Positions 15,577 through 34,532 of a stretch of 47,203 bases of DNA are shown here, one piece after another (within the stretch, counting starts at the first letter, position 1; each line of letters starts with the position of its first letter). The notes under the pieces are model-generated. The model was given only the letters and a program-made list of their open reading frames with translations. It was not told the origin of the DNA and made no database searches. The stretch is taken from positions 46,393 through 93,595 of the forward strand of contig JAUNGZ010000007.1 in NCBI GenBank assembly GCA_030524205.1, in the 5' to 3' direction. Source of the stretch: Eubacteriales bacterium. Lineage in GTDB: Bacteria > Bacillota > Clostridia > Oscillospirales > Butyricicoccaceae. The position numbers were made by a program, and so were the translations under genes.

Positions 15577-17010
15577 ATGCGTAACTTTGAAACCGACGTA
15601 CAAATGCTGAAATACCGCGTGCTGAAAGAAGTAGCGGCGCGCGCATATGAAGGCAATCTGATGGAGAGCTATTATGAAATCCCCAAGATCATTTCGCCCG
15701 GCCCCAAGGCGACCATGCGCTGCTGCATCTATAAAGAGCGCGCGATCGCGCAGGAGCGTGTGCGGTTGGCGATGGGCGGCGACCGGCGCAACCCCAACGT
15801 AATCGAAGTGATCCCGATCGCCTGCGACGAATGCCCGGTCGAGCGGTATCAGGTCAGCGAATCGTGCCGCGGCTGCATTTCGCAGCGCTGCATCAAGAAC
15901 TGCCCCAAGCATGCGATCACCAAATCCAAAAACGGCCGCGCGCAGATCGACCCCGACGCCTGCATCGAGTGCGGCAAATGCGCGAAGGTTTGTCCATATG
16001 GAGCGATTACCGAGCATGTGCGTCCCTGCGAACGCTCGTGCAAGGTAGGCGCAATCAAGATGAATGAAGAAAAAAAAGCGGCTATTAACATTGACAAGTG
16101 CATCGCCTGCGGCGCCTGCGTTTACCAGTGCCCGTTTGGCGCGATTATGGATAAGTCGTTCATGGTGGACGCGATCAACATCATCAAAAATTCCCGTTAT
16201 GGCGAGAATTACCGCACGGTTGCCATTGTCGCCCCCGCGCTTGCTTCTCAATTTGACGAATGCAGCTTGGGGCAGGTTGTTACCGCGATACGCCATTTGG
16301 GCATCGACTATGTTGTGGAAGCTGCGATGGGCGCGGATATGGTTGCGTCCAAGGAAGCGGAGGAGCTGGCCGAAAAGGGCTTCCTGACCTCGTCCTGCTG
16401 TCCGGCGTTCGTGTCCTACATAGAAAAGCAGGTGCCGGAGCTGGCGGAGCATATTTCTCATAACCTGTCTCCTATGGCCGAAATCGGCCGCTTTGTCAAG
16501 ATCAACGCGGAAATGCCGGTCAAAACTATTTTTATCGGGCCCTGCACGGCAAAAAAACAAGAGCAGCAAAAGCCGACGGTAGACCTGTGGATCGACTGCA
16601 TCCTGACCTTTGAAGAATTGCAGGCGATGATTGACGCGCGCGAAATCGACATGACCGCACTGGATGAAACGCCGCTGGTTGACGCTTCTCCGTGGGGCCG
16701 TATTTTCGGCCGGAGCGGCGGATTGACCGAGGCGGTTCTTGAAGCGGTAAAGGAAAAGGGGCTGGACTTCGAGGTCAAGGCGGAAATCTGCGATGGGATC
16801 GAAGCCTGCAAGCTCGCGTTGCTCAAGGCTAAAGCGGGCAAGCTGGATAAGAACTTTATCGAGGGCATGGCGTGCGTCGGCGGCTGCGTCGGCGGCGCGT
16901 GCAGCCTGAACCACGAACCGAAAAGCCGCGTCAAGGTTGATCAATACGGTAAGAAAGCGGAGAATAAAGAAATCGAAGCCGCAATTACAAATTACAAGGT
17001 TCAAGTTTAA
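15577..17010 (+). CDS. [FeFe] hydrogenase, group B type
   Basis: A monomeric iron-only hydrogenase-like protein of 477 residues. The N-terminal third holds ferredoxin-type cysteine sets (CDECP near 83, CRGCISQRCIKNC near 97, CIECGKCAKVC near 129, CIACGACVYQC near 175). The H-cluster domain has P1 TSSCCPAF (271-278), P2 GPCTAKKQE (321-329) and P3 MACVGGCVGG (431-440). All four H-cluster cysteines and the extra P1 cysteine thought to pass protons are present. The motif variants fit the little-studied group B rather than standard group A. The likely role is cytoplasmic H2 production or uptake with ferredoxin, which is inference. It starts at ATG 15577 after GGGAGGA, with a terminator following. 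Confidence 0.92.
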   Translation: MRNFETDVQMLKYRVLKEVAARAYEGNLMESYYEIPKIISPGPKATMRCCIYKERAIAQERVRLAMGGDRRNPNVIEVIPIACDECPVERYQVSESCRGCISQRCIKNCPKHAITKSKNGRAQIDPDACIECGKCAKVCPYGAITEHVRPCERSCKVGAIKMNEEKKAAINIDKCIACGACVYQCPFGAIMDKSFMVDAINIIKNSRYGENYRTVAIVAPALASQFDECSLGQVVTAIRHLGIDYVVEAAMGADMVASKEAEELAEKGFLTSSCCPAFVSYIEKQVPELAEHISHNLSPMAEIGRFVKINAEMPVKTIFIGPCTAKKQEQQKPTVDLWIDCILTFEELQAMIDAREIDMTALDETPLVDASPWGRIFGRSGGLTEAVLEAVKEKGLDFEVKAEICDGIEACKLALLKAKAGKLDKNFIEGMACVGGCVGGACSLNHEPKSRVKVDQYGKKAENKEIEAAITNYKVQV

Positions 17011-17043
17011 CGCAAAGGACTGCGTTTGAACGGGCGCCTTCAT

Positions 17044-17101
17044 AAAATCCCCTCTCCGGACATACGCTTTGCTGAGAAGCAGTCCGAGGAGGGGATTTTT
17101 T
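17044..17101 (+). terminator. Terminator after the hydrogenase that overlaps the next gene's ribosome site and start
   Basis: Left arm 17046-17061 pairs with 17082-17097 (AATCCCCTC with GAGGGGATT, CGGAC with GTCCG, one mismatch), followed by six T (17096-17101). The right arm contains the AGGAGGGG ribosome site of the deacetylase gene, and the last two T belong to its TTG start codon. Confidence 0.8.
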
Positions 17102-17957
17102 GAAATTGGGATTTCGTCATACGGCGGTGCAAGCTGTGTGCACGGTGCTGGTGCTGTGTTTTGCCGTCGGGTTGCTGCAGCGGAGCGGGACACGCATGGT
17201 GTTTGGGGAGCAGGATGGGACGCGTGTGCCGATCCTGATGTACCACAGTATTCTGAAGGATGGCGCGCGGCAGGGAAAATATGTGATTTCGCCCGATACG
17301 CTGGCCGCCGATTTGGATGCGCTGCAAAAACGCGGCTATCAAACCATTACCGTTTCCGATTTGCTGGCATATGTGCAAGACGGCACGGCGCTGCCTGAAA
17401 GGCCGGTTATGATCACATTTGACGATGGATATTACAACAACTATGTTTATGCATACCCGCTGCTGCAGCAGCGCAATATGCGCGCGGTCGTTTCGATCAT
17501 CGGCAGCCAGACGGAATTATATACGGAGAACGGACAGGAAAATGCCTATTGGTCCCATTTGAAATTGGAACATCTTGCGGAAATGCAGGATGTTTTTGAG
17601 GTGCAGAATCACTCGTGGAACCTGCACGAATACGGCGAGCGGCGGGGCTGCCTTCGCCGCAAAGGAGAGGACGGCACGGCTTATGAAAGCCTGCTGCGCG
17701 AGGATACCGAGCAGACGCAGAAGCTGCTGACGGCCGCAGGTTTGCCAACGCCGCAGTGCTATACCTATCCGTTCGGCGCGTGCTCGGACGAGAGCGAGCG
17801 GGTGCTGAAAGAGATGGGATTTTTGTGCACGCTGGGCTGTGAGGAGCGGATCAATACGGTGACGCGGGATCCAAATTGCCTATATGAAATGGGGCGGTAC
17901 AATCGTGCGGCGGGAGAAAGCACCGAGCGTTATCTCAAAAGAGCGTTGGGAGAGTGA
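17100..17957 (+). CDS. Polysaccharide deacetylase family protein, membrane-anchored
   Basis: A 285-residue NodB-homology protein that probably removes acetyl groups from peptidoglycan or another surface polysaccharide. It has an N-terminal signal or anchor helix (about 9-27), then the catalytic domain: VPILMYHSILKDG, the metal/catalytic motif VMITFDDGYYNN (TFDD), EVQNHSWNLHEYG (H-x3-H-like metal motif) and CYTYPFGACSDE. The start is a TTG at 17100; the first ATG would remove the membrane segment, so TTG is preferred. The ribosome site is in the stem of the upstream terminator, so expression may depend on readthrough or RNA refolding. Its stop lies five bases before ymxH. Confidence 0.87.
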   Translation: MKLGFRHTAVQAVCTVLVLCFAVGLLQRSGTRMVFGEQDGTRVPILMYHSILKDGARQGKYVISPDTLAADLDALQKRGYQTITVSDLLAYVQDGTALPERPVMITFDDGYYNNYVYAYPLLQQRNMRAVVSIIGSQTELYTENGQENAYWSHLKLEHLAEMQDVFEVQNHSWNLHEYGERRGCLRRKGEDGTAYESLLREDTEQTQKLLTAAGLPTPQCYTYPFGACSDESERVLKEMGFLCTLGCEERINTVTRDPNCLYEMGRYNRAAGESTERYLKRALGE

Positions 17958-17961
17958 AAAA

Positions 17962-18201
17962 ATGGGGCCAATGCGTTTTTCCGAGCTGCATTGCCGCGAG
18001 GTGATCAATTTATGTGACGGCGCGCGGCTGGGCGAGGTGTGCGATTTGATTTTCGATCCGGTATGCGGACAAATTACAGCGATCGTCGTGCCGGGGCAAG
18101 GCGGACTGATGAGCCTGTTTTCTCGTGAGGACTGCGTCATCCCATGGAGCTGCATTGAAACGCTGGGGGAGGATTATATTTTAGTGCGGTGGAAACGATA
18201 A
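17962..18201 (+). CDS. ymxH: YlmC/YmxH family sporulation-associated PRC-barrel protein
   Basis: A 79-residue single PRC-barrel protein. MRFSELHCREVINLCDGARLGEV and the closing VIPWSCIETLGEDYILV match the short YlmC/YmxH family, which is conserved in endospore-forming Firmicutes but has no firm biochemical function. The start at 17962 follows GGGAG. It is adjacent to and probably co-transcribed with the deacetylase gene, hinting at a shared cell-envelope or sporulation role; that is inference. Confidence 0.88.
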   Translation: MGPMRFSELHCREVINLCDGARLGEVCDLIFDPVCGQITAIVVPGQGGLMSLFSREDCVIPWSCIETLGEDYILVRWKR

Positions 18202-18219
18202 AAGAAGAACAGAAAATGT

Positions 18220-18248
18220 TTGACAAACGGTGCATGCGGTGCTAAACT
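18220..18248 (+). promoter_or_regulatory. Predicted sigma-A promoter of rpsB-tsf
   Basis: TTGACA (18220-18225), 17 bases, TAAACT (18243-18248). Confidence 0.8.
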
Positions 18249-18254
18249 ATTAGA

Positions 18255-18363
18255 GCATGAATTCACACATCCCGTGATGAACGCGGCCGGTGGCGGAGGA
18301 AACCTTCCGTTGCCGCAGTCAGATGATCAGGGATGGAGGAAACAAACCAAGGAGGAAATAAAA
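18255..18363 (+). promoter_or_regulatory. Structured 5' leader of rpsB
   Basis: A leader of about 108 bases with a stem-loop near 18288-18318 (GGTGGCGGAGG with CCTTCCGTTGCC). Ribosomal protein leaders are often autoregulated, and an S2-binding leader is known in other phyla. I do not see a match to a defined motif, so only the structure is claimed. Confidence 0.35.
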
Positions 18364-19104
18364 ATGGCAGTAATTTCTATGAAGCAGCTTCTGGAAGCCG
18401 GCGTACACTTCGGCCACCAGACCCGTCGGTGGAACCCGAAGATGGCGACCTACATCTTCACCGAGCGCAATGGTATCTATATCATTGACCTGCAGAAGAC
18501 CGTAAAGAAGCTTGAGGAAGCGTACTTCTTCGTCCGCGATATCGCCGCCGCAGGTGAGTCGATCCTGTTTGTCGGCACCAAGAAGCAGGCGCAGGACGCA
18601 ATTAAGGAAGAAGCCGAGCGTTGCGGCCAGTTCTTTGTGAACGCCCGCTGGCTGGGCGGTATGCTCACCAATTTCAAGACCATGCGCACCCGCATCGCGC
18701 GCCTGAACCAGCTGCAGAAAATGCAGGCGGACGGTACGTTTGATCTGCTTCCCAAGAAGGAAGTTATCAAGCTCCAGCTCGAAATCGCCAAGCTGGAAAA
18801 ATATCTCGGCGGCGTTCGTGAAATGAAGAAGCTGCCGGGCGCGCTGTTTGTCGTCGACTCCCGCAAGGAGAAGAATGCGATCGCGGAAGCCCGTAAGCTG
18901 GGTATCCCGATCGTTGCGATCGTCGACACCAACTGTGATCCGGATGAAATCGACTATGTCATTCCGGGTAACGACGACGCGATCCGCGCCATCAAGCTGA
19001 TCTCCCAGACCATGGCGAACGCCGTTCTGGAAGGTAAGCAGGGCGAGCAGCTCGAGGTCGAGGCCAAGAAGGAAGAGGCCGAGGCTCCCGCCGCGCAGGC
19101 TTAA
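18364..19104 (+). CDS. rpsB: 30S ribosomal protein S2
   Basis: A small-subunit ribosomal protein of 246 residues, normal for the family. Signature regions are [45 protein letters not shown] (S2 signature) and [19 protein letters not shown]. The C terminus is a Glu/Ala-rich tail. ATG 18364 follows GGAGG. It is the first gene of the rpsB-tsf operon, with a strong hairpin before tsf. Confidence 0.98.
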
Positions 19105-19127
19105 ATTTAATAGACGCAATTTTTAAC

Positions 19128-19178
19128 GTAGGGCGCGAGAGTCCCGGCGCGCCGGGTCACTGCGCCCTACCATTTTTT
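19128..19178 (+). terminator. Intergenic hairpin between rpsB and tsf (attenuator)
   Basis: GTAGGGCGC (19128-19136) pairs with GCGCCCTAC (19162-19170). The interior holds the palindrome CCCGGCGCGCCGGG (19143-19156), and six T follow (19173-19178). Partial termination here would lower EF-Ts relative to S2, as known for the E. coli operon. Confidence 0.8.
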
Positions 19179-19203
19179 GAAATCATAACTGGAGGAATTA
19201 AAA

Positions 19204-20136
19204 ATGGCTTTTACCGCTGCTGATGTAAAAAAGCTCCGCGAAATGACGAACGTGGGCATGATGGACTGCAAGAAGGCGCTGACCGAAGCGGACGGCGATT
19301 TTGACAAGGCGATCGAACTGCTCCGTGAAAAGGGTCTGGCAAAGGCCGCCAAAAAGGCCGGCCGAATCGCTGCCGAAGGCGTTGTCTGCGCTTCTGTCTG
19401 CGACAAATGCGGCGTAGGCGTGATCATCGAGGTAAACTCGGAGACCGACTTTGTTGCCAAGAATGTCGATTTCCAGAAGTTTGTCGCCGATCTGGCCGAC
19501 GTGGTCATCAAGGAGAATCCGGCTGACGTTGAAGCGCTCAAAACCTGCAAGATGGGCGAGTTGACGGTGGAAGGCGCGCTGCAGGAGAAGGTGCTCACCA
19601 TCGGTGAAAACATTCAGATTCGCCGCTTTGAGCGGTTCGACGATGCCACGGTTAACGTGGGTTACACGCATATGGGCGGCGTGATCGGTGTGCTGGTCGG
19701 CCTTTCTGTTTCCGATAATCTGAAGGGCAATGCGGCCGTTAAGGAGCTGGGCAAGGATATTGGCATGCAGGCCGCCGCGATGAACCCCTCCTTTATTGAC
19801 AAGTCCGAAGTTGACGAGGCGACGCTCGCCAAGGAGAAGGAAATCCTGCTGGCGCAGGCTCTCGAGGAGAATAAGACGGCTGCCAAGCCGAAGCCGGAGC
19901 AGATCATCCACAAGATGGTTGACGGCCGCATCGGAAAGTATTACGAGGAGAACTGCTTGTTGCAGCAGGCGTTCGTCAAGGAAAACAAGATTTCTGTCGA
20001 GCAGCACATCGCGGCTGTTGCCAAGGAACTTGGCGGCGAGATCAAGCTTGCGAAGTGCGTCCGTTTTGAAAAGGGCGAAGGCATTGAGAAGAAGCAGGAC
20101 GACTTCGCTGCGGAAGTTGCTTCCATGACAAAGTAA
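19204..20136 (+). CDS. tsf: Translation elongation factor Ts
   Basis: The guanine nucleotide exchange factor for EF-Tu, with 310 residues. The N-terminal UBA-like domain has VKKLREMTNVGMMDCKKAL, with the EF-Tu contact TDFVAKN near 80. Two dimer-type core repeats follow (VNVGYTHMGGVIGVLVGL, MQAAAMNPSFI). A C-terminal LLQQAFVKENKISVEQHI segment matches the family end. Its ribosome site is GGAGGAA and the gene is closed by a strong terminator. Confidence 0.98.
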   Translation: MAFTAADVKKLREMTNVGMMDCKKALTEADGDFDKAIELLREKGLAKAAKKAGRIAAEGVVCASVCDKCGVGVIIEVNSETDFVAKNVDFQKFVADLADVVIKENPADVEALKTCKMGELTVEGALQEKVLTIGENIQIRRFERFDDATVNVGYTHMGGVIGVLVGLSVSDNLKGNAAVKELGKDIGMQAAAMNPSFIDKSEVDEATLAKEKEILLAQALEENKTAAKPKPEQIIHKMVDGRIGKYYEENCLLQQAFVKENKISVEQHIAAVAKELGGEIKLAKCVRFEKGEGIEKKQDDFAAEVASMTK

Positions 20137-20196
20137 GGACGGATCAAATCCAAGCAGGACGTTCCAACTTTTGTTTGTCAAGTATGTATAATGGAA

Positions 20197-20235
20197 AGAA
20201 CCGAAAGATGCGCTTGCATCCTTCGGTTCTTTTTT
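20197..20235. terminator. Terminator between tsf and the convergent DUF1461 gene
   Basis: A 15-position stem with one mismatch (20197-20211 with 20216-20230), loop GCTT, and TTTTT continuing to 20235. It can also serve the minus-strand gene ending at 20247. Confidence 0.88.
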
Positions 20236-20246
20236 GCGTATTTACG

Positions 20247-20906
20247 CTACGGCTTGTCGTGCTTGCGGAGCAGCGCTGCGGCCGCGGCTGTCAGCACAGC
20301 GCCGCCGAGAGAGACGGTGAGTACGAACGCCCCCGTCCTGACCCAAAAAACCTCGGGCAGGATCTGTATGATTTGATCGGCTTGCTCGTCAAAAAGCCAG
20401 TTGGTCTTGCCGGGGAAAAAGACCGAGTGGAACGCGGTGAAAAGGCTGTTAAAATCAATCAGCGCCCACAATGCCGCAAGCGCGAATACCAGAGCCATTC
20501 CCGCAGCAGCCCAAAAAGCCGGGCTGCGTCCCGCAAACCGGTGGAACGCTATTTTGCGCCGCCATCGAAGCAGCGCGAGCGCCAGCAGCAATAACGAAGC
20601 GCAGCCGAGCAGAATGAAATCCAAACGGAACAGGACTTTACAGTCGGCAAAATGCTGCATTCCGCTGGCGGACCATTTAAGCTCACCCGTGCCAAAGGGC
20701 GCGTCTGCAACGAGATAGTCCATCACCTCGTCGTACGCCTGCCGGATGACGGCTTCGCTCCATCCGGTCTGCTCTGCCAGCGCAAGGGATTCAATCTGCT
20801 CGTAATAGAAAGGCCGGTATAGGATGGGAATAGCGACGGCGGCCGAAAGAAAAAACACGGCCAGAGCCAAGGAAAGCAGCAACGATAACAGCTTGGAGGG
20901 TTTCAT
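20247..20906 (-). CDS. DUF1461 / TIGR01906-type integral membrane protein
   Basis: A 219-residue membrane protein with about four helices: one N-terminal (about 5-29), two central (about 95-112 and 129-152) and one C-terminal (about 185-212). The conserved extracytoplasmic portion has AYDEVMDYLVADAPFGTGELKWS and MQHFADCKVLF, diagnostic of this uncharacterised Firmicutes family. No catalytic motif is obvious. Its ATG lies one base after the stop of the upstream lysoplasmalogenase-like gene, and its ribosome site is inside that gene's end, so the two form a coupled operon. Confidence 0.85.
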   Translation of the reverse strand: MKPSKLLSLLLSLALAVFFLSAAVAIPILYRPFYYEQIESLALAEQTGWSEAVIRQAYDEVMDYLVADAPFGTGELKWSASGMQHFADCKVLFRLDFILLGCASLLLLALALLRWRRKIAFHRFAGRSPAFWAAAGMALVFALAALWALIDFNSLFTAFHSVFFPGKTNWLFDEQADQIIQILPEVFWVRTGAFVLTVSLGGAVLTAAAAALLRKHDKP

Positions 20907-20907
20907 G

Positions 20908-21531
20908 TTATTCTCCTTTAGAATGGGCGGATAGCACGATCAGCACCTGCGAGGGCAGGTAAAACAGCCACATGCCAACACGGGTAAACGCATTCCACAG
21001 GCCGAGGTTGTGCGCGCCGACACAGACGTCGCAGCCGATGAAAAGCAGCAGGCCGACGGCAAACAAAAGCGCCTTTCGGTCTTTCGGCTGGAAGAGGCAG
21101 GCCTCTGCCGCGTTCAGCACGAGGTTCGTAAAATAGAACAGAGAGACGGCGATCAGCAAATCCGGCTTGCACAGCAGGATGAAAAGCGGAAGCACACGGA
21201 AAGGCAGAAGCCGGCGCAGGACCCGGCCGCGCTGCATGGAAAGGCGGATGAAGTATAGGGCCTGCACAATGCAGAACAGCGAAACGCCAAGCAGATACTG
21301 TTCTCCTTTTATCAGCAGGAACCAGTCTGCACCGGCTGTAAACGCCAGCGCGGAAGCGACCAGTCGACCGTCCGCGGTTCGGATATTCGTCAGGGCGGCG
21401 AATACGCACAACAGGATGGACGCGAATTTAAGCGGTGCGCTGTCGCTCCAATATGCGATGTCCATACCCATAAAAGCTGCATAAAGGAGCAGAGACAAAA
21501 TGGGGAAAAGCCGCGTCCGAAACCACGCCAT
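20908..21531 (-). CDS. Multi-pass membrane protein, probable lysoplasmalogenase (YhhN) family
   Basis: A 207-residue protein with about seven to eight hydrophobic helices. The pattern SALAFTAGADWFLLI...YLLGVSLFCIVQALYFIRL and the later FIGCDVCVGAHNLG resemble the YhhN/TMEM86 family, whose members cleave the vinyl-ether bond of lysoplasmalogens. Anaerobic clostridia contain plasmalogens, so the activity is plausible. The match was judged by eye and a generic membrane protein is the alternative. It is the first gene of a two-gene operon with a consensus promoter. Confidence 0.65.
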   Translation of the reverse strand: MAWFRTRLFPILSLLLYAAFMGMDIAYWSDSAPLKFASILLCVFAALTNIRTADGRLVASALAFTAGADWFLLIKGEQYLLGVSLFCIVQALYFIRLSMQRGRVLRRLLPFRVLPLFILLCKPDLLIAVSLFYFTNLVLNAAEACLFQPKDRKALLFAVGLLLFIGCDVCVGAHNLGLWNAFTRVGMWLFYLPSQVLIVLSAHSKGE

Positions 21532-21553
21532 TTATTTCACTCCTAACAAAATC

Positions 21554-21582
21554 ATATTAGGGCAATGACTCGCAGGTGTCAA
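21554..21582 (-). promoter_or_regulatory. Predicted sigma-A promoter of the YhhN-like/DUF1461 operon
   Basis: On the minus strand TTGACA (21582-21577), 17 bases, TAATAT (21559-21554). Confidence 0.75.
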
Positions 21583-21629
21583 GCGGCTTGCGTTAAAATA
21601 AGTTTTTTCTCCGGTTCGCCGCGCGCGTC

Positions 21630-21658
21630 TTGCATTTGCCCTGTTAATTCGATACAAT
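21630..21658 (+). promoter_or_regulatory. Predicted promoter of the YcxB-like gene
   Basis: TTGCAT (21630-21635), 17 bases, TACAAT (21653-21658). It is divergent from the promoter at 21554-21582. Confidence 0.65.
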
Positions 21659-21687
21659 AGAAAAAACGGCAAAGGAGTCCCCGAACG

Positions 21688-22224
21688 ATGGAATTAAAGT
21701 ACGATATTACAAAAGAAGACTATATTGCGTTTAATTTGAATTATTATACCCACAATGCGGTCGTGCAGCGCAGCATATTGACGACGCGCGTCGCAACGGC
21801 GGTCATCGTGCTGCTGGCTGGAACGGCGCTGATGGTTTGGCTCAATTTATTCCCGCCGCTGGCAATTGTGGTGTATGTAGCGCTTGCGGCCCTGTGCTTC
21901 TTTGGTACGCCGTGGTACATGCGGCACAAGATGATTAAGAACGTGGATCGGATTTTGAGCCGCGCCAATAACAAATCTGCCTGCGGACCAAAGACTCTGG
22001 TGCTGCGGGAGAATGACTTTGAACTGATCGGAGAAAATGAAGATACGACCTATCAGTATGAAGTGGTTCAGCGTACCGCTTCCGATGAAGGGCACTATTA
22101 TATTTTTGTGGATGAGTTTTCCGCGTTGATCGTGCCGTTTTCGGCCTTTGCGGATGAAACGCAAAAACAGGAATTCTATGCTCGGATTACCGCGCATATC
22201 ACAGATGAAGCGCTGAGGTGCTGA
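21688..22224 (+). CDS. YcxB-like family membrane protein
   Basis: A 178-residue protein with two adjacent membrane helices (about 33-53 and 56-75) followed by a soluble domain. The N-terminal YDITKEDYIAFNLNYYTHN and the C-terminal TYQYEVVQRTASDEGHYYIFVDEFSALIVPFSAF fit the YcxB-like family of small Firmicutes membrane proteins of unknown function. The C-terminal part resembles PH-like folds. Monocistronic, with its own promoter and a hairpin after the stop. Confidence 0.75.
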   Translation: MELKYDITKEDYIAFNLNYYTHNAVVQRSILTTRVATAVIVLLAGTALMVWLNLFPPLAIVVYVALAALCFFGTPWYMRHKMIKNVDRILSRANNKSACGPKTLVLRENDFELIGENEDTTYQYEVVQRTASDEGHYYIFVDEFSALIVPFSAFADETQKQEFYARITAHITDEALRC

Positions 22225-22228
22225 ATGG

Positions 22229-22251
22229 CAGGCTCCCGTTAAGGGAGCCTG
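22229..22251 (+). terminator. Hairpin after the YcxB-like gene
   Basis: A nine-pair stem CAGGCTCCC/GGGAGCCTG (22229-22237 with 22243-22251), then TCACTTTATG. The U-tract is poor, so termination may be inefficient. Confidence 0.55.
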
Positions 22252-22318
22252 TCACTTTATGGGAACCTTTTTATTGGTGTCTCGTCAAACCAGTTAAAAC
22301 AAGACGGGAGGGATTTGT

Positions 22319-23998
22319 ATGAAAAAGCGGATATTGGCAATCGCACTGATGGTGGGTATGCTCTTGCCGGCTGCGGGCGCCGCACAGGCGGAAAGCGATC
22401 CGGCGGCTGTGCGCACGCTGAGCAGGGCGGGCTTTGTGCAGCTGCTCGCGCGGTCCTCGGGCGAGGACTTTGCGTCCTATCAAGGCGAGGAAACCCCTTT
22501 TGCGGATGCGGAGGACGACGCGGCGGTCACATGGGCATATCATAAGTGGCTGGTTAATGGAGACGAGCGGAGTCTGTTCCGTCCGGACGACGCGATCACC
22601 CGGCAGGAGGCTGCTGCGATTCTGGGGCGCTATTTGGATTACAAATACACCGCGCTGCCCGGCGGCTGCGGCACGGGCGCGCCCAGCATGGATAACGTCG
22701 CCTCATGGGCGCGGGAGGGCGCGATGAAGTGCTGGATGTACGGTGTGATCCCGACGGACGGGACGGATTTCAACCCGTTGTCCCGCATGACCGGCGCGCA
22801 CGGCGCGCTGATGATCGATAACGCGAACAGCCTGACCATGTCTGCCGTCAGTGCGCCCGAACAAAAAACCTTTGCGGATTCTCTCGTTTCGGCGGTGGAG
22901 GCGAAAGGCAACTTTACGCTGTCGCCCTACTCGGCCCGGCTGTGCCTCGCCATGCTGGCGAACGGCGCAAAGGGAGATACACAAAAAGAACTGCTGGCCG
23001 CTTTGCAGATTGACGACCTTGGCGCGTTCAACGCGGCGGTTAAGCGGCAGATGCAGACCTACGACGGCTACGCGCGCATCATGCGTCTGGAAACCGCTAA
23101 CTCCATCTGGCTGAATCAAAGCTGGTTTGACGGAAAGGGCGCGTTCCTGCCCGCGTATCAGAAGCAGATGCAGGACTTTTATGCCGCCGAGACGAAGGAA
23201 GTGACCAACCAGAACTCGGTCGAGCAGGTGAACGCTTGGGCCAATGAAAAGACGAAGGGAAAGATCCCGTCCATCCTGACCGAGGACAACCGCGAATTTG
23301 TTACCGCACTGGTAAACGCGGTGTACTTTAAGGCCGCGTGGGCAAACGAGTTCTACGAAAACAATACGAAAAAGGCCGATTTCACCAATGCGGACGGTAC
23401 AACGGGCAAGGTAGACATGATGCACCAGACCGACTATTTCGGCTATTACGCCACGCCCGGCGCCGAAGCGCTCAAGATGGACTACCGCCAATACGCGGTG
23501 GACAATGAAGAGGGAGATAACTTTGAATCCTTCCGCGACGCGGACTTCAGCATGTACCTGATCAAAGCCGACGAAACGCTCGATGTACAGAATCTGCTTG
23601 ATCAGGCGGAATTTGTGTACGAGGATAGGATCAAGGCCGCCGTACCCAAGTTTAAGATCGAATATGGCCAGCCGCTGGACGACGCGCTGAAAGCACTGGG
23701 CGTAAAGACGGCCTACGACCATGCCAAGGCCGACCTTTCCGCGATGGTCGACCCGTCCGGCCTGCCGGGCGGCGAGCTGTTTCTGGATACGGTTCTGCAA
23801 AAGACCTTTATCGCGGTGGACGAAAAGGGCACCGAGGCCGCGGCTGTCACCGCCGCGATGAACGGCGGGGGTTCGGCCCCGCCGGAGCGCCCGCCGCTGG
23901 TGCGCGAATTTACGGCCGATTCGCCGTTCTGGTTTGCCATCCGCGACAACGCAAACGGCGAGATTTTGTTCGTTGGGCGGTATGAAACAGCGAAATAA
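22319..23998 (+). CDS. Exported serpin with N-terminal SLH domains
   Basis: A 559-residue serine-protease inhibitor. It has a signal peptide (about 1-24, ending AAQA) and two SLH-like cell-wall-binding modules: about 66-110 with LFRPDDAITRQEAAAILGRYLDY, and about 125-167. A complete serpin fold occupies about 183-556 (NFTLSPYSARLCLAMLANGAKGDTQKELLAAL, VTALVNAVYFKAAW, ADSPFWFAIRDN, GEILFVGRY). The reactive-loop hinge EKGTEAAAVT (502-511) is the small-residue pattern of inhibitory serpins. Counting from P17 = Glu502 places P1-P1' at Gly518-Ser519; the loop is several residues longer than usual and Gly/Pro-rich. Gut bacterial serpins known from Bifidobacterium and Eubacterium siraeum inhibit elastase-like host enzymes; the target here is inference. 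Monocistronic. Confidence 0.93.
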   Translation: MKKRILAIALMVGMLLPAAGAAQAESDPAAVRTLSRAGFVQLLARSSGEDFASYQGEETPFADAEDDAAVTWAYHKWLVNGDERSLFRPDDAITRQEAAAILGRYLDYKYTALPGGCGTGAPSMDNVASWAREGAMKCWMYGVIPTDGTDFNPLSRMTGAHGALMIDNANSLTMSAVSAPEQKTFADSLVSAVEAKGNFTLSPYSARLCLAMLANGAKGDTQKELLAALQIDDLGAFNAAVKRQMQTYDGYARIMRLETANSIWLNQSWFDGKGAFLPAYQKQMQDFYAAETKEVTNQNSVEQVNAWANEKTKGKIPSILTEDNREFVTALVNAVYFKAAWANEFYENNTKKADFTNADGTTGKVDMMHQTDYFGYYATPGAEALKMDYRQYAVDNEEGDNFESFRDADFSMYLIKADETLDVQNLLDQAEFVYEDRIKAAVPKFKIEYGQPLDDALKALGVKTAYDHAKADLSAMVDPSGLPGGELFLDTVLQKTFIAVDEKGTEAAAVTAAMNGGGSAPPERPPLVREFTADSPFWFAIRDNANGEILFVGRYETAK

Positions 23999-24001
23999 CG
24001 G

Positions 24002-24030
24002 TTGACAAAGCGCGTTTCGGGGTATAGAAT
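24002..24030 (+). promoter_or_regulatory. Predicted sigma-A promoter of thrS
   Basis: TTGACA (24002-24007), 17 bases, TAGAAT (24025-24030), just upstream of the T-box leader. Confidence 0.85.
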
Positions 24031-24039
24031 AAAACCATT

Positions 24040-24301
24040 CACAAGCAAAAGGCGATGACGGAAACCCTGTTGCCCCCCAAACGCCCTGCAGAGAGCGGAC
24101 GACGCGGCTGAAAGCGTCCGCAGGCGTGGGAAAACAGCACCGATTCTTGAGCTGCGCGGCGGAAATACCAGTATGCCGCGACGCGTCGTTCCCGTTACGA
24201 ACTCCGAGCGGCAGGTATGGCTCGTCCAAGCCTGCAAGCAGGGTGGAACCGTGGGTTTTTACAAGCTCACCCCTGATTTTACATCGGGGGTGGGCTTTTT
24301 C
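24040..24301 (+). promoter_or_regulatory. T-box riboswitch, threonine type
   Basis: Senses uncharged tRNA-Thr and antiterminates the thrS operon. Visible are the Stem I AG-bulge and distal loop (CAGAGAG near 24090, GGCTGAAAG near 24108), a likely specifier ACC at 24139-24141 followed by the usual TTGAGC, the invariant T-box AGGGTGGAACCGTG at 24240-24253, and a terminator stem (24263-24273 with 24287-24297) ending in a T run. The boundaries are approximate. Confidence 0.93.
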
Positions 24302-24333
24302 GTTCTCCCCGACAATGACTAGGAGGAAAAATC

Positions 24334-26088
24334 ATGTCCGAAGAAAACAAGTACACGTTTGAAAATCCGGAATACCGTGATACGTACCGTCATACGGTAT
24401 CCCATATTCTCGCGCAGGCCGTCAAGCGCCTGTATCCTGAGGTCAAGCTTGCCATCGGCCCGGCCATTGAAAACGGCTTCTACTACGATTTTGACGCGCC
24501 GTTCTCCTTCACTGAAGAGAACCTTGCCGCCATCGAGGCCGAAATGCGCAAGATCTGCAAGGAAAAGCTGCCGCTCGAGCGGTTTGAACTGCCCCGCGCG
24601 GAGGCCGTTAAATTTATGGAGGAGCGCGAAGAACCGTATAAGGTCGAGCTGATCAACGACCTGCCCGAGGATGCGGTCATTTCGTTCTACAAGCAGGGCG
24701 ACTTTACCGACCTGTGCGCCGGTCCGCACCTCGATTCGACCGGCCGCGTCAAGGGCAACGGTATTAAGCTGCAAAACGTCACGGGCGCGTACTGGCGCGG
24801 CGAATCTAAGAATAAAATGCTTCAGCGCATCTACGGCACGGCCTTCCCGAAGAAGGATGAGCTGGACGCTTACCTCGAGATGCTTGAGGAAGCCAAAAAA
24901 CGCGACCACCGCCGTCTCGGCAAGGAGCTCGGCCTGTTCATGCTGACCGAGGAGGGACCGGGCTTCCCGTTCTTCCTGCCGAACGGCATGACGCTCAAGA
25001 ACACGCTGATCGACTACTGGCGCGAGGTGCACAAGCGTTACGGCTACGTCGAGGTTTCTACGCCCATCATCCTCAACCGAGCGCTGTGGGAGCGTTCGGG
25101 CCACTGGGGACACTATAAGAACAATATGTACACCACCGTCATCGACGACGAGGATTACGCGATCAAGCCGATGAACTGCCCGGGCGGCATGCTGGTGTAC
25201 AAGGCGCAGCCGCACTCCTACCGCGATCTGCCGCTGCGCGTGGGCGAGCTGGGGCTTGTCCACCGCCACGAGCTGTCGGGCGCGCTGCACGGCCTGTTCC
25301 GCGTGCGCTGCTTTACGCAGGACGATGCGCATATCTTCATGACCCCCGAGCAGATCAAGGACGAGATCAAGAACGTTGTGAAATTGTTTGACGAGGTGTA
25401 TTCGACCTTCGGTCTGTCCTACGCGATCGAGCTTTCGACCATGCCCGAGGATCACATGGGCGACGAGAGCGTGTGGGCGTTTGCCGAGCAGACGCTCAAG
25501 GAGGCTATCACTGAGATGGGCAAGGATTTCGTCGTCAACGAGGGCGACGGCGCGTTCTATGGGCCTAAGCTGGATTTCCATCTGGCCGATTCGCTCGGCC
25601 GCACATGGCAGTGCGGCACCGTGCAGCTCGACTTCCAGATGCCCGAGCGGTTTGAACTGGAATACACCGGCGCGGACGGGGAAAAGCACCGTCCGGTCAT
25701 GATTCACCGCGTCGTGCTCGGCTCGATCGAGCGCTTCATCGGCGTGATTACCGAGCACTTCGCGGGTGCGTTCCCAACATGGCTTGCTCCCGAGCAGGTG
25801 CGCGTCATGCCGATGACCGACCGCAACATCGCCTGCGCGCAGAGCGTGCTGGACACGCTGAACGACGCGGGCTTCCGCGCCGCACTGGACAGCCGCAACG
25901 AAAAGATCGGCTACAAGATCCGAGAGGCGCAGGTGCATAAAGTGCCGTATATGATCGTCATTGGCGATAAGGACGAGGAAAAGGGCATCATCTCCGTGCG
26001 CGACCGCAAGACGGGCGAGACCACCCAGATGGAGGTGCAGGAATTCGTCGAAAAGCTCGCTTACGAGGTCAAGGAAAAATTGCGGTGA
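24334..26088 (+). CDS. thrS: Threonyl-tRNA synthetase lacking the N-terminal TGS domain
   Basis: Charges tRNA-Thr. The 584-residue protein begins almost directly with the editing domain (HTVSHILAQA at about 20-29, DLCAGPHL near 131). The class II catalytic core follows (motif 2 region HRHELSGALHGLFRVRCFTQDDAHIF near 310, CGTVQLDF near 430, motif 3 VVLGSIERFIG) and then the anticodon-binding domain (about 485-584). Typical bacterial ThrRS is about 640 residues with a 60-residue TGS domain, which is absent. The upstream sequence is the T-box leader, so this is not an annotation error. ATG 24334 has AGGAGGAAA upstream. Its TGA overlaps the GTG of the next gene. Confidence 0.97.
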   Translation: MSEENKYTFENPEYRDTYRHTVSHILAQAVKRLYPEVKLAIGPAIENGFYYDFDAPFSFTEENLAAIEAEMRKICKEKLPLERFELPRAEAVKFMEEREEPYKVELINDLPEDAVISFYKQGDFTDLCAGPHLDSTGRVKGNGIKLQNVTGAYWRGESKNKMLQRIYGTAFPKKDELDAYLEMLEEAKKRDHRRLGKELGLFMLTEEGPGFPFFLPNGMTLKNTLIDYWREVHKRYGYVEVSTPIILNRALWERSGHWGHYKNNMYTTVIDDEDYAIKPMNCPGGMLVYKAQPHSYRDLPLRVGELGLVHRHELSGALHGLFRVRCFTQDDAHIFMTPEQIKDEIKNVVKLFDEVYSTFGLSYAIELSTMPEDHMGDESVWAFAEQTLKEAITEMGKDFVVNEGDGAFYGPKLDFHLADSLGRTWQCGTVQLDFQMPERFELEYTGADGEKHRPVMIHRVVLGSIERFIGVITEHFAGAFPTWLAPEQVRVMPMTDRNIACAQSVLDTLNDAGFRAALDSRNEKIGYKIREAQVHKVPYMIVIGDKDEEKGIISVRDRKTGETTQMEVQEFVEKLAYEVKEKLR

Positions 26089-26774
26089 GCGCAGAGCAGC
26101 CGCGGGCTGCCTGCGTGAGAGATGCAGCGGCCCTGTGGGGCAGGCGGCTGTTGATGCTGGCGGTGGGCACGGTCGTTTCACAGGCGGGGATTCAGTTGTT
26201 TGTCGCCGTGCGTTTGGGCTCTGACCCGTATATGGTATTCATACAGGGCGTCGCCCGGTTGACCGGCTTGTCTAACGGCATGGCGATGAATATCGTCATG
26301 CTTGTGCTGATGGCGCTGCTTCTCGCTTTTACGAGCGGATATATCCGGCCGGGTACGGTGCTGTGCACGTTCTGTGTCGGTCCCTTGGTCGGTGCATATG
26401 AGCGGTTATATGGCTTGCTGCTGCCCGCAGAACCGGCGCTGGCGCTGCGATGCGCGTTGATTTTGCTGGCTTGTGTAATCGCGTCGTTTGGGCTGGCGGT
26501 CATGCTTCAGTCAGAAGCGGGAGCCTGCCCAAACGATTTGATTTCAGTTGTGCTGTCTGACAAGATCGGGCGGCTGGAGTTTCGGTTTGCCCGAATCGGT
26601 ACGGACGCGGTTCTGGTGGCCGCAGGTTTTCTAATGGGCGGCACAGTTGGCGTTGGTACGCTGGCTTCCGTCTGCCTGTATGGGCCGATCATTCAAGTTT
26701 TTACGCCGACTGCGAAAAAGCTTGCACGCCTGCTTCATGTTGAGGAAATCGCTGCCCGGCAAGAGAAGCTGTAA
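26085..26774 (+). CDS. YczE/YyaS/YitT-type membrane protein co-transcribed with thrS
   Basis: A 229-residue protein with about five to six membrane helices. RRLLMLAVGTVVSQAGIQLFVAVRLGSDPYMVF, FCVGPLVGAYERL and SEAGACPNDLISVVLSDKIG fit the YczE-like membrane protein family, whose function is not established. The GTG start at 26085 overlaps the thrS stop (GTGA), so it is translated from the thrS mRNA and inherits T-box control. That makes a link to threonine supply, for example transport, reasonable but unproven. No separate promoter is visible. Confidence 0.82.
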   Translation: MSAEQPRAACVRDAAALWGRRLLMLAVGTVVSQAGIQLFVAVRLGSDPYMVFIQGVARLTGLSNGMAMNIVMLVLMALLLAFTSGYIRPGTVLCTFCVGPLVGAYERLYGLLLPAEPALALRCALILLACVIASFGLAVMLQSEAGACPNDLISVVLSDKIGRLEFRFARIGTDAVLVAAGFLMGGTVGVGTLASVCLYGPIIQVFTPTAKKLARLLHVEEIAARQEKL

Positions 26775-26789
26775 GTAGAAGATGCGGGG

Positions 26790-27089
26790 CTACCCCTGCT
26801 CGAGCGCGCGGATGCCGTCGGTCGATTTGAACACTTTGATGTGGTACAGCTTGCCCGATTCGAGCGGCCCAAAGGTGAAGCGGCCAAGTTCGTCGGTATA
26901 CAGCGCGCTGATCGGGCGTGTGGGCGCGTCCGCCCGGTAGACGGTGACAAGCGCGGCTTCAACCGGCTTATCGTCTCCGTCGACGACGGTGCCGACAAGT
27001 GCGGGGCGCTGGTCGAGAAACAGTGAAACTGTGGTGTCAACGACTTCGTGGGCCGCTGGTTTGACATAGAAGGACTGCGAAAGATTCAT
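26790..27089 (-). CDS. Small carboxypeptidase-regulatory/Cna-B-like domain protein
   Basis: A 99-residue protein that is essentially one beta-sandwich domain of the carboxypeptidase regulatory-like/Cna-B type: LVGTVVDGDDKPVEAALVTVYRA and TDELGRFTFGPLESGKLYHIKVF are the hallmark strands. These domains normally occur as repeats in large secreted proteins; this copy has no signal peptide, membrane helix or sorting motif. It could be cytoplasmic, exported by another route, or a fragment that became an independent gene. It has a ribosome site (AAGGGG), is convergent with yczE (16-base gap) and divergent from proS. Function unknown. Confidence 0.78.
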   Translation of the reverse strand: MNLSQSFYVKPAAHEVVDTTVSLFLDQRPALVGTVVDGDDKPVEAALVTVYRADAPTRPISALYTDELGRFTFGPLESGKLYHIKVFKSTDGIRALEQG

Positions 27090-27130
27090 GGCAGATTACC
27101 CCTTGTTCAGTACGAAATGATCTATTGCAA

Positions 27131-27143
27131 TGTATGAAATACA
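27131..27143. promoter_or_regulatory. Short dyad upstream of proS
   Basis: TGTATGAAATACA is an inverted repeat with a three-base centre in the 79-base gap between the Cna-B-like gene and proS. It is a possible operator; no clear promoter was recognised there. Confidence 0.3.
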
Positions 27144-27168
27144 CTCAGAAAAGGTGAGGGAATACAAT

Positions 27169-28608
27169 ATGGCAGAACAGAAGAAGCTGGTCAGCGAGAT
27201 CACGTCGATGGACGTGGATTTCGCCCAGTGGTATACCGATATCGTCAAAAAAGCGGAAATGATCGATTATTCCTCGGTCAAGGGCTGCGTTATTATGCGG
27301 CCTTACGCACAGGCTCTGTGGGAGAATATCCAGCACACGCTCGATGGGATGTTTAAGGCGACCGGGCATGAGAATGTCGCTATGCCGATCTTTATTCCGG
27401 AATCGCTTTTGCAGAAGGAAAAAGATCATGTCGAAGGTTTTGCGCCCGAGGTTGCGTGGGTGACGCACGGCGGCACGGAAAAATTGGAAGAACGCCTTTG
27501 CGTGCGCCCAACCTCGGAGACGCTGTTCTGCGAGCATTATGCAAAGACCGTCCGCTCGTGGCGCGACCTGCCCAAGCTGTATAACCAGTGGTGCTCGGTT
27601 GTTCGCTGGGAAAAGACCACGCGCCCCTTCCTGCGCTCGCGCGAGTTCTGGTGGCAGGAGGGACACACCGTTCACGCCACCGCCGAAGAGGCGATGGAGG
27701 AAACGCTGCGCATGCTGAACATTTATGCGACCTTCTGTGAGGAATATCTTGCCATACCCGTCCTCAAGGGCGAAAAGACCGAGAAGGAGCGCTTTGCCGG
27801 CGCGGAAAAAACCTATACGATCGAGGCCATGATGCATGACGGCAAGGCTTTGCAGTCGGGCACAAGCCATTATTTCGGAAACGGCTTCGCCAAGGCGTTC
27901 GACATGCAGTACACCGACAAGAACAATACCCTCCAGTATATGGAGCAGACCTCTTGGGGCGTGTCGACCCGCCTGATCGGCGCGATCATCATGACGCACG
28001 GCGATAACGAGGGACTGGTGCTGCCGCCGCGCATCGCGCCGACGCAGCTGGTCGTCATTCCGGTTGCCAGCCACAAGCCGGGCGTGACCGAAAAGGCGCA
28101 GGAACTGCTGGAGCAAATCAAAGCGTCGGGTATCCGCGCAAAGATCGACCTGTCTGAAAACTCTCCCGGCTGGAAATTCGCCGAATACGAAATGAAGGGC
28201 GTTCCGCTGCGTTTGGAGGTCGGCCCGCGCGATATCGAGGCCGGGCAGTGCGTGCTCGTCCGCCGCGACAGCCGCGAAAAGACCGTCGTTAAGTTTGAGG
28301 AGCTGAATACCGTGATTCCGCGCCTTTCGGAGGAGATTCAGCAGGCGTTGTTTGACAAGGCGCTCAAAAACCGCGAGGAGCACACGTACACGGCAAAGAG
28401 TCTGGACGAAATGAAGGAAATCATGAAAGAACACGTCGGCTTTGTCAAGTCCATGTGGTGCGGCGACCTTGCGTGCGAGGAAAAGGTAAAGGAAGAAACA
28501 GGCATGCCGTCCCGCTGCATGCCGTTTGAGCAGGAGACGATTTCAGACGTTTGCCCGGTTTGCGGCAAACCCGCGCATAAAATGATCGTCTGGGGCATTG
28601 CATATTGA
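27169..28608 (+). CDS. proS: Prolyl-tRNA synthetase, archaeal/eukaryal (ProS3) type
   Basis: Charges tRNA-Pro. The 479-residue enzyme has the class II core with [13 protein letters not shown], the motif 2 area [29 protein letters not shown], and motif 3 [28 protein letters not shown]. The anticodon-binding domain comes next, then a C-terminal zinc-binding-like end with CGDLACEEK and [19 protein letters not shown]. The absence of the large inserted editing domain and the final Tyr mark the archaeal/eukaryal type, scattered among Firmicutes. An in-frame ATG at 27130 lacks a ribosome site; 27169 follows AAAGGTGAGGG. It has no T-box, unlike thrS. Confidence 0.97.
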
Positions 28609-28636
28609 TCACGCGGCTTTGCGTGGCATAAAGAAC

Positions 28637-28678
28637 GGGTCCGTCCGGAACGGTTTGCCGGACGGACCCTTGTTTTCT
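28637..28678 (+). terminator. Terminator of proS
   Basis: A perfect 12-pair stem GGGTCCGTCCGG/CCGGACGGACCC (28637-28648 with 28658-28669), then TTGTTTTCT. Confidence 0.88.
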
Positions 28679-28700
28679 CAGGAAAGGAGACTGGGAGCGC

Positions 28701-29567
28701 ATGGTGGAATGGCTTGAAGCTTTTTTTGAGACACGTGCGGGAACCGCCGTGGGTGCGGTCTTGTTTGCGGCTGCGGTGGTATTGGTCACGTGGATGCTGG
28801 CCGGCGTGGTCAGCCGGGTGATGCGCCGTCTTATGGAGCGCCAGAAGCGGCGCGGCAGCGGCGCTGCGGCGGTTTTAGGCTTTGCGCGTTATGCCGCGGT
28901 GGCGGCGGTTTATTTCGCGGGCTTCATGGTCGTGGTGTCCGGCATTCCGCTGCTGTCAAGCGCGGTCAAAACGCTGCTTACCGCCGGCGGCGTGATCGCG
29001 GTGGTGGCCGGCCTTGCCGCGCAGGAGGCGCTGGGCAGCGTGGTCAGCGGTATGATGATCTTAGCCTTTAAGCCGTTTAAGCTGGGCGATGTTGTGCGGT
29101 ATATCGACAACGATATTTCGGGTGTGATTGAAGAAATTACGCTCCACCATACCACGATCCGCACGTGGGAGAATAAGCACGTAATCATTCCCAACAGCAA
29201 GATGAACAGCGCGATTATCGAAAATGCGGATTATGCCGACAGCAAAGTGTGCGTGTTCCTTGAGGTCGGCGTGTCGTACGAGTCCGATCTTGATCTCGCG
29301 AAACAGCTTCTGGCAGATGAGGTTGCGCGGCAGGCGGACTATCTGGATGTGCGCACGCCGGCTCAGAAGGCGGCGGGTGCGCCGCCGGTGCAGGTGGTTG
29401 TGCTTGCGCTGGCCGAATCTTCCGTCACGCTGCGCGCCGCCCTCTGGGCAAGGGACAACGGAACCGCTTTTGCGCTGAAGTGCGCCGTATTGGAAAATGT
29501 GAAAAAAGCGTTTGCGCAAAATGGAATTGACATTGCATATCCGCATGTGGTTGTGGTGCAAAAATAA
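28701..29567 (+). CDS. mscS: Small-conductance mechanosensitive channel (MscS family)
   Basis: A 288-residue membrane channel that releases solutes on hypo-osmotic shock. It has three membrane helices (about 17-40, 60-84, 88-110), with the pore-lining helix TM3 in AGGVIAVVAGLAAQEALGS. The beta domain follows with KPFKLGDVVRYID, GVIEEITLHHTTIRTWENKHVIIPNSKMNS, the family hallmark, and then the cytoplasmic vestibule domain. Length is standard for E. coli-type MscS. ATG 28701 follows AAAGGAGA and GGGAG. Single-gene unit between two terminators. Confidence 0.95.
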   Translation: MVEWLEAFFETRAGTAVGAVLFAAAVVLVTWMLAGVVSRVMRRLMERQKRRGSGAAAVLGFARYAAVAAVYFAGFMVVVSGIPLLSSAVKTLLTAGGVIAVVAGLAAQEALGSVVSGMMILAFKPFKLGDVVRYIDNDISGVIEEITLHHTTIRTWENKHVIIPNSKMNSAIIENADYADSKVCVFLEVGVSYESDLDLAKQLLADEVARQADYLDVRTPAQKAAGAPPVQVVVLALAESSVTLRAALWARDNGTAFALKCAVLENVKKAFAQNGIDIAYPHVVVVQK

Positions 29568-29611
29568 CCGGCGCAATGCATTGGCAAAGCGCCGGCAGCA
29601 GGAACGCGCAG

Positions 29612-29646
29612 AAAAAGCCGCCTTTCATTCGGAAAGGCGGCTTTTT
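29612..29646. terminator. Bidirectional terminator between mscS and the M13 peptidase gene
   Basis: A 15-pair stem (29612-29626 with 29632-29646), loop ATTCG, with A/T arms giving U-tracts on both strands. Confidence 0.92.
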
Positions 29647-29650
29647 GATA

Positions 29651-33254: not shown

Positions 33255-34532
33255 ATGAATAAATGGTTTCGCACGGTGTGCGCGGGCGCACTGCTCGCGG
33301 GCGCGTTGACAGCTTCAGCGTTTGCGGCGGATTTTACCGATTGCGCGGATCATCTGAAGGATTTGGGTTTATTCCAAGGCACGGAGCAAGGCTACGAGCT
33401 TGACCGCGCGCCCACGCGGGCGGAAGCGGCGGCCATGCTGGTTCGCCTGCTTGGCAAGGAGGATGCGGCGAAAGCGCTGGAGTATACGGCGCCCTTCACT
33501 GATTTGCAGAACTGGGAAAAGCCATACGTGCAGTATTTGTATGAAAACGGCCTGACAACCGGCGCCGCGCCGACGGCTTTTGAGCCGGAAGGCCGCTGTA
33601 CCGCACAGATGTATGCGGCTTTTTTGCTGCGTGTGCTCGGCTATGCCGAGGCGGAAGGAGATTTTACATACCGCGAGGCCGTTTCGTTTGCTGAGCAAAC
33701 CGGTTTGTATGACGCGTCGACGGTCGATGTAGAAAATTTCCTGCGCGACCATGTGGCGGCCGCGAGCTACACCGCGCTTTCACTTGCACCGAAAGGGCAA
33801 AGCGATACGCTGCTGGATTCGCTGATCGGACAGGGCGCGGTGGATGCCGAGGCGGCAGCGCCCTATCGCTCCCTATTCGACGTTTACGCGCGCTACCGCG
33901 GCGCTACTGCCGGAATGGACGAGCTGACGGCGCTTTCGCTGAAACACACGCTGACGGTCGACAATACCGGCGCGTTGGGAAGCTTTGCGCTGACAAGCGC
34001 GGAAACGACTTCGATTGACCGAGGCGCGCCCGCATTGCTGACCAGCAGAACGGTTACGCTGCGCGCCGGAACCGTCGGGGAGAAGGCTTTTACCGCTGAA
34101 AGCTATACGGCGGATGGTTACAGCTATATTAAGCAGGACGGCGCAAAATCGCGCCGCGCGCTGTCCGCCCGGCAGATGCGTCTTGCTTTTACCGGTTATG
34201 CGCGCGTGCCGGTCGCGCTGATCGAGGAAATGACCGCATCCTCCGCGCAGGTTTATGCTTTCCGGTACAGCGAGGCCGGATTGTCGCGGCTGAACGGCCT
34301 GCTCGACGCGGCGCGCGCCGCGGTCGGCGGCTTTGACGAGATGGAGGTGAGCGGCCTGCGGATGGAGCAGCGCGTATCGGGCGGCCGCATTGCATCGCAG
34401 GAGCTGGAAATGGAATACAGCGCGGATGATCTGCACGGCTCGGTGGTCAGCTCGGCGCAGCTTCTTGCGGTAAACGAGCATGTTGCGGTAACCGCGCCTT
34501 CTAATTTGGATCAGTATCCGCTTGTTCAATAA
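33255..34532 (+). CDS. Exported SLH-domain protein of unknown function
   Basis: A 425-residue secreted protein with signal peptide MNKWFRTVCAGALLAGALTA(SAFA). Two SLH-like modules lie at about 27-70 (LDRAPTRAEAAAMLVRLLG) and 78-130 (FTDLQNWEKPYVQYLYENGLTTG, EGRCTAQMYAAFLLRVLGY), with a partial third up to about 190. The C-terminal half (about 210-425) is a beta-rich region that I do not recognise (SLKHTLTVDNTGALGSFALTSAET, GYSYIKQDG, LEMEYSADDLHGSV). Its pattern of glycine-spaced strands recalls lipoprotein-type carrier folds, but this is weak. Start at ATG 33255 after AAAGGAGAA. The next gene, another exported protein, follows 61 bases later. Confidence 0.8.
   Translation: MNKWFRTVCAGALLAGALTASAFAADFTDCADHLKDLGLFQGTEQGYELDRAPTRAEAAAMLVRLLGKEDAAKALEYTAPFTDLQNWEKPYVQYLYENGLTTGAAPTAFEPEGRCTAQMYAAFLLRVLGYAEAEGDFTYREAVSFAEQTGLYDASTVDVENFLRDHVAAASYTALSLAPKGQSDTLLDSLIGQGAVDAEAAAPYRSLFDVYARYRGATAGMDELTALSLKHTLTVDNTGALGSFALTSAETTSIDRGAPALLTSRTVTLRAGTVGEKAFTAESYTADGYSYIKQDGAKSRRALSARQMRLAFTGYARVPVALIEEMTASSAQVYAFRYSEAGLSRLNGLLDAARAAVGGFDEMEVSGLRMEQRVSGGRIASQELEMEYSADDLHGSVVSSAQLLAVNEHVAVTAPSNLDQYPLVQ

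Follow-up and report, generated by a model that had tools for sequence, protein, structure and literature searches.

A complete serpin with a probable SLH wall anchor in Agathobaculum, and its relatives across Clostridia

What would a serpin do at the wall of a clostridial cell? The question is raised by an open reading frame at 22319-23998 (+ strand; ATG start, 559 aa) of the 47,203-nucleotide stretch of DNA analysed here (the window), whose genus is taken to be Agathobaculum (family Butyricicoccaceae). The gene is a real, complete serpin with an inhibitory-type hinge. Its serpin domain, residues 183-555 (22865..23983, +), matches Pfam PF00079 at 256.8 bits against a cut-off of 27 (E 5e-76; positions 4-367 of 370), and the front of the reactive loop, P17-P1 from E502 to G518 (23822..23872, +), carries the hinge EKGTEAAAVT, of which P15-P9, GTEAAAV, are the small residues of the inhibitory type. 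The full domain and the hinge bear out what a reading of the same DNA from its letters alone (the sequence-only reading) had proposed. Solved relatives of the domain include 8gxv, 5ncs and 5cdx. The best two by sequence, 8gxv (which we take to be chloropin; E 1.9e-38) and miropin, 5ncs (E 5.4e-37), are 375-residue chains that match residues 195/196-555 of the query, that is, the serpin part only. NCBIfam returns no match to the protein at E<=1, and nothing is drawn from a full-length structure model (built from four sequences; pLDDT 37.7). The window's genome (2.21 Mb, 82% complete) has this single serpin.

The explanation favored here, which is held to be moderately probable, is that of a secreted serpin, held at the wall through an SLH groove, that traps foreign elastase- or subtilisin-like proteases. 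The protein would be exported by the general secretion route, as its N-terminus indicates. A spindle formed by SLH1, SLH2 and SLH3 would then bind pyruvylated secondary cell wall polymer through a single groove, G2 (Gly81, Trp130 and Arg36), a second groove kept by many members of the class having been lost in the genus; invariant residues and the presence of CsaB suggest this step. With the serpin facing outward, its Gly/Ala/Ser-rich loop would serve as bait for an elastase-like or subtilisin-like serine protease, whose S1 pocket is small, and the loop, once cut, would insert and leave the protease covalently trapped, as the hinge and the domain suggest. The last and weakest step is that the targets may be foreign, from the host or from other microbes, so that surface proteins at the wall would be shielded.

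The export signal is visible by eye, as had been claimed: residues 1-24 (22319..22390, +), MKKRILAIALMVGMLLPAAGAAQA, have a basic start, a hydrophobic core and an AQA end. What follows amounts to about two and a half SLH modules by alignment, rather than the two counted before. Of SLH1 only the rear half is present (residues ~33-46; 22415..22456, +), with the SRAG helix (LSRAGF) and Arg36 at the place of SLH-Arg43; its front half is unrecognizable in the 15 aligned genus sequences, so that three full modules are not to be counted. SLH2 (~58-105; 22490..22633, +) is full, with Gly81 as SLH-Gly29 and an ITRQE motif, and contains the only stretch of the protein (residues 68-99) that matches Pfam PF00395 (SLH), at 33.1 bits against a cut-off of 20.8. 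SLH3 (~119-170; 22673..22828, +) is full in length and degenerate: Trp130 stands for SLH-Trp13, Gly29 and Arg43 are lost, and alignment with class relatives that have three modules (L079 has three by eye) shows its signature to be largely gone throughout the genus.

The residues that are kept are informative. In the SpaA study, in the part of it available here, an SLH groove takes Gly29 from SLHn, Trp13 from SLHn+1 and Arg43 from SLHn+2 (PMC6081394). By this rule groove G2 (G81, W130, R36) is intact in 15/15 genus sequences and in all 19 class sequences counted (10 of the 29 non-genus SLH-serpins are outside this count: nine, L077, L122, L136, L138, L139, L140, L143, L145 and L148, have modules in another order or badly aligned, and L146 was shortened by trimming). 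In solved SLH structures these three positions make up the principal pocket for wall polymer. All 19 of these class sequences keep the Gly29 of G3, against 0/15 in the genus, where the Arg43 of SLH3 is also missing without exception. The pattern is imperfect and G2 is not uniquely preserved, because the Arg43 of SLH2 (R95) is retained too, in 15/15 genus sequences and in all 34 sequences together. The Sap and SpaA trimers (3pyw, 6bt4, 6cwn, 7sv5) thus resemble the window serpin in having the G2 residues; they differ in having three full SLH modules, against about two and a half, and in carrying an S-layer protein instead of a serpin.

The same region can be read otherwise. The degenerate N-terminus may no longer bind wall polymer, which would make the protein a soluble or loosely held inhibitor, and a pair of cysteines confined to the genus (Cys117 and Cys138, both in SLH3; 15/15 genus and 0/19 class sequences) would stabilize a remodelled module with another job. 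Half a module is indeed gone from SLH1. Pfam SLH exceeds its cut-off in only 2 of 15 singly scanned genus proteins (the window's and L013, at 25.1 bits); nine more fall below it at 13.4-20.5 bits (L002 20.5, L015 19.1, L007 17.9, L004 17.2, L008 16.6, L011 15.4, L005 14.2, L012 13.5, L014 13.4) and the remaining four (L003, L006, L009, L010) give no match at all. Sister serpins without SLH also exist (L124, L135, L137, L141). Against release stands the invariance of the three G2 residues in sequences that have all lost the Gly29 of G3 and the Arg43 of SLH3, and a released inhibitor is judged unlikely.

Anchorage through G2 has further support from the genome and from comparisons of fold. CsaB, the enzyme that produces the ligand of SLH domains, is present (TIGR03609, 220.5 bits against a cut-off of 213.1, hence only 7 bits above it, inside a 786-aa frame; the same model exceeds its cut-off in 4/14 control genomes), and the genome contains 99 SLH matches at E<=10. 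Of 394 genomes of the order, 192 match a 161-aa N-terminal query at E<=0.001; the match usually spans query residues 8-145, which correspond to roughly 32-169 in the protein. Outside the genus the strongest match has E 8.8e-20, and the two best extra-genus proteins, L114 and L115, both have SLH, in two stretches each, in a Pfam scan of these two. A structure model of the N-terminal part alone is modest (pLDDT 57.9, pTM 0.59) and serves only for ranking by Foldseek, in which SLH structures (3pyw, 7sv5, 6cwn and 6bt4) take ranks 1-4 of 66, at E 0.04-0.24, probability 0.82-0.99 and 17-18% identity; none of the 66 matches reaches E 0.001. The SLH tether of the sequence-only reading thereby gains support at the level of sequence, in the groove residues (15/15), CsaB and the SLH-topped ranking, and wall anchoring of the window serpin through its SLH region is likely.

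The gene has a fixed address. A YcxB-like protein (Pfam PF14317) is encoded upstream at 21688..22224 (+), and the downstream neighbor at 24334..26088 (+) is taken to be thrS. Searched by tblastn, thrS lies downstream of the serpin in 13/13 genus loci (L002-L014) and YcxB upstream in 11/14 (L002-L015); YhhN takes its place in L003 and L012, and neither is found in L014. The serpin itself occurs in 15/25 genus genomes (in G013 split across two contig ends). thrS was found in six of the 10 serpin-less genomes: in three (G005, G004, G023) tsf, YcxB and thrS are in place and the serpin is cleanly missing from among them, and the other three show neither YcxB nor serpin in the stretch available, which in one case ends 32 bases before thrS. 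Since the YcxB and thrS flanks are found with and without it, genomes of the genus differ in whether this one site is occupied by the serpin gene. Between serpin and thrS, at 24040-24300 (+), lies a leader that contains AGGGTGGAACCGTG and, at 24263-24297, a terminator-like stem; it looks like a T-box, yet Rfam finds nothing at gathering score in 17000-30000, this leader included. Other genes of the window were also noted: close to the serpin, a Lit-like lipoprotein transacylase (20247-20906, -; PF07314, 138.3 bits) adjoins a YhhN protein; a 784-aa protein (29654-32005, -) combines SLH with peptidase M13, presumably the neprilysin family, ~6 kb from the serpin; and a 425-aa protein with SLH as its only Pfam match (33255-34529, +) adjoins one with Cu_amine_oxidN1 and DUF3221 (34594-35994, +).

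What the serpin might trap has to be sought in its loop. Counted from P15 = G504, P1 is G518 and P1' is S519, the same register as in the earlier prediction of a Gly518-Ser519 bond, and P1' onward reads SAPPERPPLV (23873..23902, +). The Pro-rich extension that had been called unusual is there; its peculiarity is not, PP[EQ]P following the scissile bond in 17/29 class loops (L120-L148). P1 Gly is found in 14/14 genus loops, as are P4' Pro, P6' Arg and P7' Pro. P1 in 29 non-genus SLH-serpins is Thr (10), Ser (9), Ala (5), Asn (2), Gly (2) or Met (1), and in 79 other serpins Glu (27), Thr (14), Gly (12), Ala (11), Ser (7) or a rarer residue (8 of the 131 domains were unplaced by the pattern used, and the dockerin serpin was left out). 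By these tallies small P1 residues and a Pro-rich exit are a trait of the group, and Gly as an invariable P1 is confined to the genus; in view of the class loops, the combination of small residues at the bond with Pro is not unique to the window protein.

Conservation along the loop is uneven. Mean pairwise identity is 0.98 for hinge P15-P9 in 14 genus domains (L004 differs, with GAEA), 0.64 for P8-P1 and 0.74 for the domain, and the hinge reaches 1.0 in 22 class SLH-serpins (a set from which seven of the 29, five of them with a deviating hinge, were left out). The proportion of 8-residue windows of the domain that are less conserved than P8-P1 is 19.5% in the genus and 39.5% in these 22. A fast-evolving loop, shaped by an arms race, finds little support in these figures: conservation of P8-P1 is below average in the genus and not extreme.

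Glycine is a poor P1 for elastase. It had been argued that the target may differ, given Gly518-Ser519. The argument is weak: in the accessible description of the siropins, HNE and PR3 cleave at P3-P2 and P6-P5 and not at the nominal P1 (PMC5127057), and the nominal P1 therefore leaves the target unsettled. The P6-P5 bond of the window serpin is A513-M514. The reactive loop singles out no one target.

The proteases to be restrained might also be the cell's own, or those of its community, instead of host enzymes. Such self-protection or control of processing has been proposed for cellulosomal serpins, those of C. thermocellum acting against subtilisin-like proteases according to the part of PMC12484212 seen here, and a dockerin-serpin (L090) is found in a genome of the order. 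A search for two peptidase families, however, finds in the window's own 82%-complete genome neither an S8 peptidase (matched by the same search in 7/14 control genomes) nor a C1 peptidase (3/14), and such proteases may have been missed because of that completeness. The SLH-bearing peptidase of the window belongs to family M13 and is a metalloprotease. Serpins are not known to trap metalloproteases. Restraint of resident proteases is accordingly regarded as quite unlikely.

It may be asked, finally, whether the protein traps anything at all, or is a substrate or a sensor that is sacrificed on cleavage. Relatives with added solute-binding modules (SBP_bac_3 in L121, L123 and L127, with a 32-residue remnant in L130; PBP_like_2 in L136) would suit a sensor, 5/29 non-genus SLH-serpins (L077, L143, L144, L146, L148) deviate from GTEAAAV, and a Gly-rich P3-P1 may be cleaved slowly. 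Yet the window serpin has an inhibitory-type hinge, within the genus no part of the loop is better conserved (0.98, P8-P1 having 0.64), and in non-inhibitory serpins the hinge is usually lost. A non-inhibitory or sacrificial role is therefore given a very low probability. An inhibitory trap function is likely to judge from the hinge and domain, and the favored explanation, of a wall-held trap for foreign proteases, is kept. That the protein is a host-interaction factor is possible, and a role against the proteases of other microbes fits equally well.

The architecture reaches well beyond the genus. Serpins occur in 36/87 genomes of the family and in 184/394 genomes (an even sample) of the order. 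Among 41 fetched family and order proteins that were scanned (two of these being the window's own protein), 41 have the serpin domain, 13 have SLH (E<=0.01), three Big_14 and one a dockerin; the SLH-serpins of the order outside the genus in this set (L055, L071, L077, L079, L081) come from three families. The remaining fetched serpins, the fetched ones being a minority of those in the order, were classed by the appearance of the N-terminus, and a crude pattern marks many of those examined as lipoprotein-like. In L078, L080 and L104, as read by eye, the place of a lipobox is taken by a membrane helix with a short cytoplasmic segment, possibly a further route of tethering.

Across the class, sampled evenly with 391 genomes, the 559-aa query has, among the matches listed, near-full-length matches (starting at or before residue 76 and ending at 556 or beyond) in at least 23 genomes from 11 families outside the order. 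Of the window protein and the 29 best class matches, scanned with Pfam, 30/30 have the serpin and 25/30 the SLH domain, a set enriched for SLH because it was chosen by similarity to the window protein; the five without SLH are L147 and the four sisters named above. Not counting the window's own, 24 genomes thus have serpin and SLH together by Pfam; they belong to 10 families outside the order, and 21 of these 24 lie among the 23 near-full-length ones, two of which (G441 and G700) were left out of the scan. Additional modules were observed in two of the scanned proteins: a weak match to a fervidolysin prodomain-like module in L131 and a copper amine oxidase N-terminal domain in L147.

In a FastTree phylogeny of 131 serpin domains, 43 SLH-labelled domains and five SLH-less ones fall on one side of a branch with support 0.998, and none of the 83 remaining domains carries the SLH label (for genus members this label was given on the alignment and not on the Pfam score, and most domains labelled as other were so classed by the appearance of the N-terminus). 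The class domains in the tree had been picked for their likeness to the window protein, which favors SLH among them. Alignment with other bacterial serpins, which the sequence-only reading had put forward as a check, thus places the window protein in a class-wide SLH-serpin group. The fusion of SLH and serpin may have been one old event, with SLH lost in four short members.

Related systems have been described. Siropins 1 and 2 of Eubacterium siraeum inhibit the elastase-like HNE and PR3; they are likewise gut clostridial serpins with small hinge residues, Siropin 1 predicted to be intracellular and Siropin 2 extracellular, and SLH goes unmentioned in the part of that account at hand, by whose description alone they are compared here (PMC5127057). 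A dockerin is stated for C. clariflavum serpins, and those of C. thermocellum are localized to the cellulosome (PMC12484212 and PMC4582956, in part). These too are serpins joined to a surface-docking module; the dockerin docks to scaffoldin, while the SLH region of the window protein would dock directly to wall polymer. A large serpin phylogeny sorts prokaryotic serpins by signal peptide, and the words S-layer, dockerin and domain architecture are absent from its main text as available (PMC8233489). Searches of the open-licence literature (serpin with SLH or S-layer, surface, Agathobaculum) returned no description of an SLH-serpin. SLH-serpins are a broad group across Clostridia, not confined to one organism, for which no prior description was found. 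A wider proposal, put forward tentatively and given somewhat less than an even chance, is that they constitute an unnamed class-wide group of wall-anchored serpins derived from one ancestral fusion, with a small-residue loop and a Pro-Pro exit, forming a protease-shielding coat of suicide inhibitors on the wall and including sensor-like versions with solute-binding modules.

If this is true, such serpins would shield the Gram-positive surface from gut proteases that prefer small residues, and sister species with and without the gene at the YcxB-thrS address would allow a test of the benefit; the question is testable because the pattern occurs naturally within one genus. As modulators of host proteases, gut serpins are under discussion in the context of inflammation (PMC8201313, in the part available). 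If many of them are seated at the wall, the bacterial surface would be their first site of action, and surface seating would change both what serpins protect and the dose that host proteases meet.
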